From Rhodotorula mucilaginosa (taxonomy: Eukaryota > Basidiomycota > Microbotryomycetes > Sporidiobolales > Sporidiobolaceae): 64,000 nt of DNA. Below, one piece after another: positions 8,978 to 64,000 of the stretch. The stretch lies in contig CP137871.1 in NCBI GenBank assembly GCA_034406715.1, forward strand, positions 1,223,796 through 1,287,795, read 5' to 3'. Below the pieces are notes generated by a model. That model had not been told where the DNA came from. It searched no databases and saw nothing but the letters and a program-made list of their open reading frames with translations. The first letter of the stretch is position 1. Each line of letters starts with the position of its first letter. Both the position numbers and the translations under genes were made by a program.

Positions 8978-10737
8978 TTATACATCCGGTCCGAACGGAG
9001 GAACCATGATCTGCGCGCTCGGAGGTCAGTAACAGTCTTCTGAGCGACAAGGCGTGGCAAACCTCACCTGCTCGTCCCACCGACCTGTGAGAGCGCAAAG
9101 GGTGTCAGCGGTTCAGCACACGATGTAGTGAACGCTAAATAAAGCTCACCATACGCATAGGTCGTGACGAGTTTGGGCGGAAAGAGGTTCCAGTCGACGC
9201 GTTCGAGCTCTTCGTAAGCGCGCTTCTCCTCCCCTTCCAACTCGAACGCCGTCGTGTTCGTCTCGCCCCGCGCTCGATTGTACTCGAGCACCGAATAGCC
9301 GACCGCCGCACGCGGTACGACCTGGATCCTCGCGCCGTCGATCCAGTGTCCGGCCTTCTTGCGCCGATGCGCCGGGTTCTCGGTCCCGCCGGGCAACGTC
9401 GGCGAGAAGGTTTGCCAGATGTCGCTGCACAGGAGGTAGCACTCGCTGTGCGTGTCGGTGCCGTCGTGCGAAGTCCGGAAGCGCAGGTTGTGCGGCGGGT
9501 GAAACAAGGCGGCGTCGAGGACAGTGAGCCCGTTGAAGCACGAGTAGACTTGGAAGGGGACCAGCGAGTCGTAGCGGAACCGAGACTCGGACAGGGGGAG
9601 GACGCGAGACGGCAAATTCCAGTCGCCCTTGGGGTACTTGATCTCGTAAAAAGGCCTGTAGTGCCGATTCAAAGTCAGCCTCGATCGCACACCCTCGGCA
9701 ACAAGGCCAATCACTCACAGGCCTTGCATATCGCGTGCGACCCAGGTGTCGTAAAAGAGCAAGGGATAGTCTGGCTCAAACTCGACGATCCGGAGCTCCT
9801 TGAAATCCATGCCGCAACTCATGTCGGCTTGCTGCTTTTCGTGCTGGAGCAGGATCTCGAAGATTTCGGCCTCGCACAGGTGGACGTCGTTGATAAAGAT
9901 GACGTGGTCAAAGGTTCCCGGCGGTGCGTCGTACAGGGGCTGCAGGACGACGTTCCGCAGCTCGGCGAGGCCGACGATGCGCTGGCCTTGGATCCAGCCG
10001 GGCTGGCGGTTCGGATCGCTGACGAGCGTGTAGCCCGCTCCGAGCTGTCGCAGCAGTTTCGCCAACAAGAAGAGCTGATGCGGCGTGTCGTCCTTGGACC
10101 CGTTCTCATAGACCGAGACGTGGAACCGGTCAGGGCCCAACGACGAAAGGACCGAGTATATTGCGCGGATGAGCGCGGGGGCCACGTCGGCCGAGTCGTA
10201 CAGGTTGATGCCAATCAGGTACTTGCGCTGGCTGTACGGTTTTTCGCGAATGAGGACGTTGTAGCGGTCTTGCTGGAACGCGTTCAAGCGGCAGAGCGGT
10301 GTCGAGTGAGCCGTGAGGAGCGCATCTCCGAGGAGGTCGTCGAACGGGACATTGTGCTCGACTCGCAGCCGCGTCGGTACCGCTTCGAGGCGTGACTCGG
10401 CGAACCCTTCGAGTCGCTGCCGTAGCCGTGCGTGCCGCTGCAGGCGAGACCGGTTCGCGTGCTGTAATGATCGAACTGCGACGAGAACGACGAGGATGGT
10501 GGCGACGGTGGCGAGGGCGCATTTGACGAGTCGAGCGCGCGTCCCTTTCCGTTTCAACGACGCTGCCGCTGCCGCTATGGTCGCCCACACTGCGACGAGG
10601 CTCGCGTCGTTCGCGTTACTGGTCGCAGTCGACGCTGTCGTCGGGAGGAGCGGCTCGGTGTCTCCCGGTGCAGGCGACGGCCGAGCGCTCTCAGAGACGG
10701 GCATCGCATGCACACCTGAGCTGTGCTTGTGCAGCAC
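8978..10737 (-). CDS. GT69 family alpha-1,3-mannosyltransferase (CAP59/CMT1-like, 524 aa)
   Basis: Golgi type II glycosyltransferase that should add alpha-1,3-mannose to glycans or polysaccharides. Exons 10737-9719, 9655-9150, 9084-9068 (17 nt), 9010-8978. A cytoplasmic N-terminus is followed by one membrane anchor (about 71-89) and a lumenal domain: KYLIGINLYDSADVAPAL, VYENGSKDDT (about 210-218), and the acidic motif FINDVHLCEAEIFELL-type at 282-297, which matches the NDV metal/substrate motif of Cap59/Cmt1. Later come RFRYDSLVPFQVYSCFNGL and RWDEQIMVPPFGPDV at the C-terminus. Met12 (10704) is an alternative start. The gene is divergent from an SGNH hydrolase with a shared 421-bp upstream region. 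Confidence 0.9.
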
Positions 10738-11158
10738 TATGTTTCTAGGCTGCTGTAACTTAGCGGTTGGGCAGCGTCAACGTCTGTCCGACTCTTCGCG
10801 TCTGCTTCCGCGTGAGGCAGAAACGTTTGAAAGCGTCTTCATCACCCGGCAGTAACTCCCTCGACAGATGCTTTGCACTTGACTCGCAGCGTGCGTTGAG
10901 CCTGTTGTGACTGTTTCTGTGCCCAGGTAAGTACATTTCAAGACCCTGGCCGCCTTCTGCGCGGCGGAAGCGTGTGACGGCCGGACCCGAAATCGCCGCC
11001 GGCCCGGAGCCGTGCCGCGTTCGCTCGATCGAAGCTTGGAATTTCTCCGTCTCCGAAAATTCTCACGCGTCGCTCGCGGCCGAGACCCATATGCCGCCGC
11101 TGCTCGGCTAGTTCAGACCGTACCAGCCTGCTGCCAGACAGGCTCGCCCGCCCGTGCT
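10738..11158. promoter_or_regulatory. Shared intergenic region of the GT69 / SGNH pair
   Basis: The two membrane-anchored glycan genes start back to back from this 421-bp region, so it must hold both promoters. No TATA box or repeated element stands out by eye. The assignment as a shared promoter comes from gene orientation only. Confidence 0.5.
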
Positions 11159-22490: not shown

Positions 22491-23908
22491 ATGGTGGCCT
22501 TGGAACGGCGGCAACAGGTGACGATTGTGACGACCGCTGCGCCGACGACAAGCGACCGGCTCGCCGACACTGCCGCGACTCGCTTCTTACCCTCAGCCAC
22601 AGCAGGCGGTGCAGCAGCGGGCACAGACGACTCGAACTCGTCCGTACTCGACATCTGGCAGTACAGTGAGTCCCTCTTTGCGGCGGCGAATGTTGATGCA
22701 TTTGCTGACCGCGCGTTCCTTCCACACTGTACCCACCAGCCATCTTGGTCGTGGTCGTTCTCGGCGCAGTCGCTTTCTTTTCGACCATCTGCATCTTTCG
22801 CAGGCAGCGTCGTCGAACCCGCGCAAGGAGGACAGCCCGACTCGCTGCAGTGGAGGACGGGCTCGGCAGGGAAACAGAATTTGCAGCCCGAGGCGACTTT
22901 GACGACGCCGTCTCGATGTCCGAGATGCAGTCGACGCACTCGCGAGTCTTGCCTCCGCCCGCATACCAAGAACGGCCTCGCTCGTCTGGGCTGTCATCCA
23001 CCGTCACGACCACCACCGAAGTCGGTTCAGATTCCCGTCCCAGTACCGGCAATCGAAGGCCCTCGCTGTCCAACCGCCTCTCGCGCTTCCCGTCCGCGAT
23101 CGGATCGTTCCTGAACAAGCGGGTCCAACCGAACCTCGGAGGCACCAACGTCTCCACCGACGAGATGCAGACTCAATCCGCCGAAGCGCAGCTCGCTGCA
23201 GCGCGGCGGCAGCAGCAGCAGCAGAGACAACCGACTCGTCGCTCCTCATCTACCTCGTCCATCTTTGCCTTCTCGCCTCGACGCGCTTCGAGTGGCGGAG
23301 AAACTGGGCCCGTCCCCGAGTCGCCCACCACGAGGTCGCGCCGCTTGCACTCTGAACCGCCGAGCGCCGAAACCCTCGAGCAAGTCCGGCATATCCGCCG
23401 CGCCTTGAGCGATGCCGGACTCTTGTTTGCGCCGCCTCGCTCGCTGTCCGATCACCGACTCAGCACCGGCAGCGCAGCAGCAGCAGCGGGAGGGAACCGG
23501 CCTGCCATGCTCGCGACGACGCACGAAGGTTTGCGAAACCGCTTCGACGAGGAGGAGGAAGCCGAACGTGAGATTGCGCGCGAAGAGAGGAGAGCGAGGA
23601 GGAGGCGGAGGCGCGAGAGGGAGCGGCAGAGGATGGAGGACGAGGCGGGCTTGCCGACTTACTCGAGAGAGGTTGCCGAAGGAGAAGCGGTGTTGGAACG
23701 GGCGGAAGGGTGGAAATCCGCAGATGACGACGACGGCGGCGATGACGATGATGAGCATGACGAGTGCTCTCGGATCGAGGATGGAGGGAGGACGAATGGC
23801 GAGCAGAGGGCCCGACCCCCCGACACCGTCGCGGTCGGAGAGGGCCAAGGAATCCCGATCCCCGTCCTGCCTCCAGATCCTGCCGCCGTCTCCCCGCATG
23901 GACACTAG
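22491..23908 (+). CDS. Single-pass membrane protein with PY motifs (447 aa), unknown function
   Basis: Not a family I recognise. Exons 22491-22665 and 22740-23908. A Thr/Ala/Ser-rich N-terminal part of about 57 residues, without a clear signal peptide, precedes one strong membrane helix, TILVVVVLGAVAFFSTICIF (about 59-78), followed by an Arg-rich stop-transfer stretch. The long cytoplasmic tail is Ser-rich, contains a polyGln run, a mixed charge segment REIAREERRARRRRRRERER, and acidic DDDDGGDDDDEHDE. LPPPAYQ matches a PPxY motif and LPTYSR an LPxY motif, both of which bind WW domains of Rsp5-type ubiquitin ligases. This suggests a membrane adaptor for Rsp5 (inference). A cell-wall sensor is another possibility. 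Confidence 0.7.
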
Positions 23909-24414: not shown

Positions 24415-25447
24415 ATGCTTGCCTCGATCGACGCGTTGTCCAATCGGCGAGGCGCCATCCGGCTTGACGAGGACGAACCATTTGAGGACGAGAAGCTGTC
24501 TCTCCCAAACAGTCTACCAGAGTCGGCCGCGACGGAAGCGAGGGTGGAGTGCAGTCGTACGTGATAAAGCGGCAGTGCTCGCCGGAGAGAAATCGCGACT
24601 GATGCGTCTCCTTCTTCTCGCAGCGGGTCGCCTCTTGTGCGAGTCCCTCCTGTGGGTCACGTTCCCGCGAGATCCCCGAGTTGCATAGAACTCACCCAGA
24701 TGACATCATACAGGGCGTCCATTTGGATCATCTTCTGTCGCGAGCTCGTCGCAACGGATCCCTCGGCAGACAAGTACCTGTTGTATCGCAGGCTGATCAA
24801 CGTTATTCTCGTCGTGCCCGTTCTTGCCGGCTGCGGGACGGCTGCGGCAGTCCTCCAAGCAGAGCAGATTACTGGAAATTTCCAGCGTATCGCAGGCTGG
24901 ATCGGAGGGACTCGTGCGTCGTTCCGTATCCTTTCCCTGCGTACACAAAACTGACCATGGATCACGCTGTCGGACAGTCGCCTTTGCCCTTCCGTGGGGA
25001 CTCGTTGTACACGAGACTCTGGCGACGAGCACAGAGACATGCGTCGTGGCATGCTTCGCTGTGGGTAAGTCCGGCGCGTCTAGCAAGCGTGTTTGTTTGA
25101 AAAAAACTCATGGGCTTGTCTTGCAGGCCTCATCCAGCTTTCGTTGGTTCTCCCGTGAGTCCGGCCACCGCATGCTTCCACGTCTCTACAGATGCTGACA
25201 CGGACTCCGATATAGAGCGGCGAATCAGGCTGACGAAGTATGCGAATGTCAGTGTCGCTGCTGGAAAGACGAGCAACGCGACTCGCTCGTCGGCTTGCAA
25301 GGTGTTACCGCGCGGGGTCACTGGCGTACCGGCCATGCTCGCTATGTGCACATTGAATTCTGTGACTGGCAAACAGTACATAAATTGAAGCAGTCGGCGG
25401 TCGAGACCAGGATTCCCAAGTACGAACAACACCCCCTGGCTACTTGA
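24415..25447 (+). CDS. Four-pass membrane protein A (237 aa), tandem paralogue of B, unknown family
   Basis: I do not recognise the family. Exons 24415-24556, 24689-24913, 24978-25064, 25127-25154 (28 nt), 25216-25447 give 238 codons with consistent splice phases. An acidic N-terminal domain (RRGAIRLDEDEPFEDEKL) leads to about four hydrophobic segments: TSYRASIWIIFC, INVILVVPVLAGCGTAAAV, LAFALPWGLVV, and VVACFAVGLIQLSLVLP. A Cys-rich patch CECQCRCW follows the last helix, then a ~60-residue hydrophilic tail. Gene B downstream shares the order of segments, the FALPW motif, intron phases, and a 28-nt penultimate exon. The frame is open upstream to 24067, so a longer N-terminus is possible. No stop or frameshift is seen. 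Confidence 0.65.
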
Positions 25448-26053
25448 TCAGCTGCAGGATCGCTCGCGAAGCTTGTTAAGCGACTGTGTGTGCATTCCGC
25501 TCTCGAGATCTAGGCGCCTGTATGTACTGCACACTATGCACTCTTGTACAATTCCTGCGAATAAAGCCTCTCTCTAGTAGCCTGAACGTAAGCTGCGCGA
25601 CTCGAGCTTGAAACGCCTTGAGGCCGCCACACCGCGCCGGCTGACTTAGCGGCCGAATTCTCTCGCGAATTTCAGGACCAGGCGATCTGGAGATTCAGCG
25701 AGAGATTCACAGCTACTATATCTATGCACTACAGTATGCAGTACATACAGTAAGCTGTGCGGAGCAGAAAGAGGTTGATCGAACGCTCTCGGGCTGGATT
25801 TCCGGCTTCTGCTGCTTCCTGAGACAGGTCTGGAGTCTGAGCTCTTTGCAGCCAGCCCTCGGCTGCGCTTGATCAGAAGCTTGCGCAAACCCGACGGAAC
25901 ACCCCTGGCACCTGGCATTGATCATGTGCATGAAATTCATGTCCGGAAACCATAGCGATCGACGTCCTCGAGCGAGTTGCGTCCGGACGCTGGGACGCGT
26001 CTCTCCCTCTCCTCCGCTCCGAGTTGCTCTGAACGAAACGCGCCGCTGCGGGC
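25448..26053. other. Spacer between tandem genes A and B
   Basis: About 600 bp, less GC-rich than the genes, with stretches such as CTATATCTATGCACTACAG near 25716. No gene, RNA or repeat could be supported. It should hold the end of gene A and the promoter of gene B. Confidence 0.45.
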
Positions 26054-26980
26054 ATGTCACGCTGGCTCGAGTGCGCCACGATGTTCTTTCGAAGACGGCA
26101 GGGCGGCAGGATCCGGCTGCCGGATGACGACTCTCGGCTGAGCGTAATCGAGGAAAAGCTGCGCGGCGCGGACGAATGTCTTCCGGAGCCGGTGCTCGCC
26201 CCTGCACGACTTCGTTCACGACTTTTCTCAGGTAAGTGGACTTGTGTGGTTGCGTCTTGAGGGGTCCGGAACTGAACGACCCCGCCCAGCAGGTCCGACC
26301 GTCAGCCTCGCGGCTTGGTTTACCCTGTCAGTGGCGCGATCGGAGGTCGCTTTATCCCCTCGGAGCGCGTAAAGACTGACATGAAGACTCGCGGAATAAC
26401 AGCACGTGTGGATGGCTCACACTTGCATTGGTGGTCGCGAGGTTTGAGCCCATACGCGTCGCGATCTTGTCCGGAGCGAAACATCCTATCCTCTCGACGC
26501 TCCCGCTCTTGCTCGCATGTCCGGCAGCAGCCTATACTTTCACAGCAGTACGCTGTGACTCACAAGCCGCTCGGGTCGTCATCAGGCTGATCACTCCGGG
26601 TACGCACCTCGCGCTCATCCGAGCTGGAAACCTGCGCCGCGGCTGACCAAAAAATTCCTCACATCTCAGCCGTCTTTGCCCTCCCATGGCTGCTCATACA
26701 GGCCTGGAATCCATATCTATCTCCGTGGCAAGCTGCATATATCCTTGGTGGTCTCGGTGCGTTGTCACGAGCTTTTTTGAACGCGTTCGAAAACTCATGC
26801 TAAATTGAGACTTGCCCCGCAGCCGTGTACGAAGTCGCACTGGTCCTCTGGTATGTCCACTGCCTGTGTCTGCGTCAATGAAGGTAGCTTCCTCACCCCA
26901 AGCCGCACTTCCTCAGGTCTGTGGCATTGGCCGACGAACGGGCAGAGTCAAAATCGCTCGACACTCCGACCACGTCGTAG
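26054..26980 (+). CDS. Four-pass membrane protein B (196 aa), tandem paralogue of A, unknown family
   Basis: Exons 26054-26231, 26293-26368, 26442-26599, 26670-26756, 26823-26850 (28 nt), 26917-26980; they sum to 197 codons in frame. The N-terminal domain has the motif GGRIRLPDDDSRLSVIEEKL, parallel to RGAIRLDEDEPFEDEKL in A. Hydrophobic segments: TVSLAAWFTLSVA, ILSTLPLLLACPAAAYTF, AVFALPWLLIQAW, AAYILGGLAVYEVALVLW. Both copies carry an FALPW motif at the start of the third segment. The protein ends shortly after the fourth helix with a Ser/Thr-rich tail and lacks the Cys patch of A. Intron 2 uses a GTAAAG donor and a CGAG acceptor, the weakest splice call. Function unknown. Confidence 0.65.
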
Positions 26981-63893: not shown

Positions 63894-64000
63894 GGGTTAG
63901 GTTAGGGTTAGGGTTAGGGTTAGGTTAGGGTTAGGGTTAGGGTTAGGGTTAGGGTTAGGGTTAGGGTTAGGGTTAGGGTTAGGGTTAGGGTTAGGGTTAG
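63894..64000 (+). repeat. Telomere, (TTAGGG)n reading out to the chromosome end
   Basis: About 18 units of TTAGGG run to the last base of the window. Two early units are TTAGG, missing one G. The G-rich strand points to the right, so this is the right end of the chromosome or contig. Confidence 0.98.

Follow-up and report, generated by a model that had tools for sequence, protein, structure and literature searches.

The window analysed here, a stretch of 64,000 nucleotides (C8:1223796-1287795; G+C 61.1%) from a genome of 20.35 Mb in 19 contigs, contains two adjacent plus-strand genes, A and B, whose spliced products are predicted to be four-pass membrane proteins. A third gene of the same kind, C, is unlinked and lies on contig C7. 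The gene models, those of A and C having been selected with B in view, comprise the following features:

24415..25447, plus strand: gene A, corrected; 238 aa if read to 25447; model based on open frame, GT..AG introns and homology to B and C
24415-24556, 24624-24651, 24714-24913, 24978-25064, 25127-25154, 25216-25447, plus strand: exons of A; intron phases 1,2,1,1,2
24624..24651, plus strand: 28-nt second exon of A, between two canonical introns; entered in phase 1 and left in phase 2, like its counterparts in B and C; completes helix 1
24978..25064, plus strand: exon 4 of A, 87 nt; FALPW and helix 3; length and phase as in B and C
25127..25154, plus strand: exon 5 of A, 28 nt; start of the second half of the last helix; length and phase as in B and C, sequence different
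25238..25447, plus strand: tail of A with CECQCRCW; doubtful, may be partly intron or untranslated as read; absent from B and C
26054..26980, plus strand: gene B, 196 aa; five introns of phases 1,2,1,1,2, conserved with C
26054-26231, 26290-26326, 26403-26599, 26670-26756, 26823-26850, 26917-26980, plus strand: exons of B
C7:61074-60104, minus strand: gene C, 186 aa; exons of 151/34/197/87/28/64 nt; same five phases as B

Around A and B, a Pfam scan of ten neighbouring ORFs gave matches in five, namely a Zds_C protein, a CAP59-type mannosyltransferase, Sec6, Dcc1 and a cation-efflux protein. The mannosyltransferase (9718-10776, minus strand; PF11735, E 4e-40) is, by Pfam name, kin of the Cryptococcus capsule-gene family. 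Upstream of A, a 399-aa ORF (22709-23908) that holds a single hydrophobic stretch and PPxY-like motifs rich in proline was without match in the Pfam scan, and between A and B lies an 18-nt inverted repeat, 94% complementary (25518-25535 / 25733-25750). The right end of the window carries TTAGGG repeats (63902-63919 and 63925-63996) and the start of contig C8 carries CCCTAA-type repeats; with telomere-type repeats at both ends, the contig appears to span a whole chromosome, telomeres included.

In the preliminary description, B had been read through five introns as a protein of 196 aa, and this reading was retained (exon lengths, stop codon counted, 178/37/197/87/28/64 nt). The exons proposed there for A do join into a 237-aa open frame, but a 28-nt exon had been missed. 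The intron then placed first in A, 24557-24688 (132 nt), holds a complete canonical intron, and the region was resolved as an intron of 67 nt (24557-24623), the 28-nt exon 24624-24651 and an intron of 62 nt (24652-24713). The corrected gene has five introns of 61-67 nt each and exons of 142/28/200/87/28/232 nt, stop codon counted. Addition of this exon, which was selected with B in view, brings the peak 19-residue hydropathy of helix 1 to 1.70, versus 0.77 in the earlier version. Once A is read with six exons, the asserted match of intron phases between A and B extends to five of five. Their penultimate exon, described as identical, is equal in length (28 nt) and phase but differs in sequence; the exon preceding it measures 87 nt in A and B alike.

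Using B as query, gene C was found at C7:60366-61074 on the minus strand with an E-value of 2.8e-14. It was spliced with B as guide, its third acceptor (AAG) included, and its exons 3-6 equal those of B in length. Examined for a different exon frame, of the kind that had been named as evidence against the family, C keeps both frame and phases, and A, B and C all have six exons, phases 1,2,1,1,2, an 87-nt exon 4 and a 28-nt exon 5. When A, B, C and the core of A were used as queries against their own genome, only A, B and C were recovered, in single-sequence, exon-wise searches that distant members can escape. A pattern for exon 4 (acceptor plus F-A-[LV]-P-W in register), designed from the three genes themselves, occurs at exactly three places, which are A, B and C, and its reversed control at 0. 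The locus is best explained by a small paralogous family, of which three members have been detected in this red-yeast-like fungal genome, A and B among them. The phenylalanine ammonia-lyase exon of the genome has its best matches in PDB 1y2m and 1t6j, both of red-yeast origin, which would point to a red yeast, perhaps Rhodotorula mucilaginosa.

Protein identity is 51% between B and C and 24% between B and A. At the nucleotide level, B and C agree at 366/560 aligned bases in exons (59-75% per exon), 180/328 in introns (51-60%), 83/179 upstream and 75/177 downstream, exon 6 having been taken one base too long in B and one base too short in C for these counts. Substitutions between them (pS 0.482, pN 0.297, dS 0.77, dN 0.38; dN/dS ~0.49) show purifying selection, and the A-B and A-C comparisons are near saturation (dS 3.0 and 2.5). 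The local score of A against B, 66, was reached by 0/1000 full shuffles and by 0/1000 local shuffles in which the hydrophobic layout was preserved (maximum 65); with the membrane core only, local shuffles reached the A-B score in 1/2000 cases and the A-C score in 0/2000. A profile of B and C matched A at 88.2% (E 2.9e-6, a single comparison), versus 0.2% (E 0.27) for reversed A. Judged by these comparisons, A is far more distant from B and C than these are from each other, yet significantly related to both. Together, A and B are with high probability real homologous spliced genes.

This distance of A makes the A/B tandem pair older than the split between B and C, and C, on the same comparisons, is a copy dispersed without its flanks after A and B had parted. 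The proposal of a strongly diverged tandem duplication stands as to homology and divergence of A and B, but one tandem duplication falls short as an account, because the closest relative of B is the unlinked C and not its neighbour A. In ~10 kb on each flank of C, the search for an A-like neighbour returned weak stretches only, none convincing, and when the window was compared with the fetched parts of C7 for segmental duplication, the sole nucleotide match (E up to 1e-3) was exon 3 of B and C.

Coding signal was scored with codon use trained on six ORFs of the window, five of them Pfam-matched. In 17 of the 18 exons the proposed frame outscored the two alternative forward frames; exon 4 of A wins by only 0.01 bit, and exon 4 of C scores better in another frame. 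Over the whole coding sequence, the proposed frame gave -0.082, -0.077 and -0.012 bits per codon for A, B and C, and the best reverse-strand frame -0.097, -0.201 and -0.223, a margin that is tiny for A. Codon bias in all three is weaker than in the training ORFs (held-out mean 0.15).

The preliminary description had also credited A with a specific CECQCRCW patch and a long tail. Both have become doubtful, being without support from codon statistics, from B or from C. Aligned in register, the last exon reads ADERAESKS in B, ANERAERKR in C and ADEVCECQC in A, and in B and C a stop codon follows soon after the ADE/ANE motif. The A codons in 25238-25393 average -0.247 bits (~-0.25); of 88 coding windows held out from training, 3.4% score that low or lower, and among 218 windows read in a wrong frame but free of stops, 54.6% score as high or higher. 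Since windows of B reach down to -0.22 bits, this low score is a lack of support and no proof. A sixth intron at exactly 25238-25393, unproven and with a weak donor (GTATGC), would give A a short B-like tail. The CECQCRCW patch is not to be relied upon.

Each of the three proteins has four 19-residue hydropathy peaks (1.51-2.28). An N-terminal segment of ~50-65 residues with the IRL-x-acidic motif is followed by four closely spaced helices and, in B and C, by a short C-terminal tail. The features already reported as common to A and B were recovered, namely an IRL motif with acidic residues, FALPW and four hydrophobic segments that follow the same order, and their reading as a four-pass membrane family is strengthened by C. 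With the N-terminus set inside, A, B and C place 17, 16 and 17 K+R inside and 3, 3 and 4 in the outside loops, 10 of the inside residues of A sitting in its doubtful tail. Hydropathy and the positive-inside rule thus make a topology of four passes with both ends cytosolic probable. In the three-way alignment (B numbering), I20, R21, L22 and D25 are invariant in the N-terminal part, as are P106, L108, C111, A114 and A115 in helix 2, F140, A141, P143 and W144 at helix 3 and L173-L175 in helix 4. The alignment has zero invariant histidines and one invariant cysteine, which disfavours an active site of the usual metal or thiol type. It comprises just three sequences from a single genome, and conservation within it is a weak pointer to function.

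The role favoured, if weakly held, is that of a non-enzymatic four-helix membrane scaffold or adaptor, in keeping with a compact bundle, two ends that are predicted to lie inside and the lack of an active-site signature. Helix 2 would pack by its conserved face, P-x-L-x-x-C-x-x-A-A, and helix 3 by its first residues, F-A-[LV]-P-W, and a cytosolic partner would be docked through the N-terminal IRL motif. The scaffold role has two main rivals. The first is that the proteins are divergent members of a known fungal four-pass family, for instance MARVEL-like or Sur7-like, missed by sequence profiles. Although the general layout of four helices with both ends inside is the same, and HMM scans with single sequences have little sensitivity to divergence of this order, a Pfam scan of the three proteins to E 10 gave only two families at chance level (E 0.074 and 0.32), and this explanation appears rather unlikely. 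The second, unlikely as well and a little more so, is that they are small transporters or channels, or subunits thereof, whose functional site would be a polar residue halfway along helix 4. At that conserved position, in a helix that is hydrophobic elsewhere, B and C have E and A has Q, and the four-helix bundle is compact, but no match beyond chance was obtained in Pfam, in NCBIfam, where the best for the three members was a selenium transporter model (E 0.069), or among PDB sequences (one chance match, E 2.7). The curated cut-off of Pfam-A or NCBIfam families was reached by none of the three. It seems very improbable that the models are chance open frames or decaying pseudogenes, spliced as an artefact of GC-rich DNA: the weak codon bias and the doubtful tail of A would fit, but frames, phases and exon lengths recur in C, on a different contig, and nonsynonymous change between B and C is lower than synonymous change.

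Further searches covered GTDB contigs, where 238 stretches fit a peptide pattern and 0 were confirmed, and IMG/VR, where 171 fit and 0 were confirmed; absence from prokaryotes and viruses was expected anyway. In the open-licence literature, no paper on the A-B-C family was found. That A, B and C form a previously undescribed red-yeast four-pass family, possessing a docking motif at the N-terminus and a helix-packing signature of its own, shaped by tandem duplication, dispersal and fast divergence, may be put at somewhat short of an even chance. If so, its three genes, mapped exactly exon by exon and marked by a diagnostic exon motif, could readily be annotated and sought in other fungi, and they would show how exons of 28-37 nt come to be overlooked in genomes of this type. 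Since fungi commonly have orphan membrane families, the gain is modest, barring a phenotype or wide conservation: A, B and C look like a real, fairly ordinary orphan gene family.

Among known systems, DUF1772/Anthrone_oxy (PF08592) had been suggested by eye and was rejected. Its members resemble A, B and C as small four-helix membrane proteins with a conserved proline near helix 3. When the A-B-C profile was compared by hhalign to nine DUF1772 sequences (eight bacterial, fetched by motif pattern, and one gene of the same genome with approximate exon joins), the result was 0.16% and E 0.36; reversed controls gave E 0.16 and 0.051, better than the real comparison, and the positive control 92.7% and E 4.4e-7. 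The P-[FL]-T-x4-M-P-x-N motif characteristic of DUF1772, which the nine sequences also show, does not occur in A, B or C; these have F-A-[LV]-P-W in the corresponding region. Searching the same genome with PF08592 gave a signal at C5 only; there, G000:C5:1247000-1252500 holds a spliced DUF1772/anthrone-oxygenase-like gene, which scores 26.4 bits exon by exon versus a Pfam cut-off of 27.3 and is clear by profile (92.7%). That A, B and C are membrane enzymes of this kind, as similar size, four helices and the visual likeness of the FALPW region to P-[FL]-T...M-P-x-N might suggest, can be all but dismissed, since hhalign did no better than reversed controls while its positive control worked, and PF08592 pointed to C5.

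The four-pass layout is also that of MARVEL-type and tetraspanin-like fungal proteins. These can be likened to A, B and C by layout alone, with four helices and both termini predicted cytosolic, and differ in that A, B and C are without a Pfam match. As to genomic position, a study on Neurospora describes lineage-specific (orphan) fungal genes near telomeres (PMC10684091). The present family differs in that the conserved Sec6 and Dcc1 genes lie closer to the right telomere than A and B, and in that C lies ~60 kb from a contig start whose first 300 bases are without telomere repeat. It resembles the Neurospora genes in lacking an assigned function and in the location of A and B, 37.0-39.6 kb from the right telomere.
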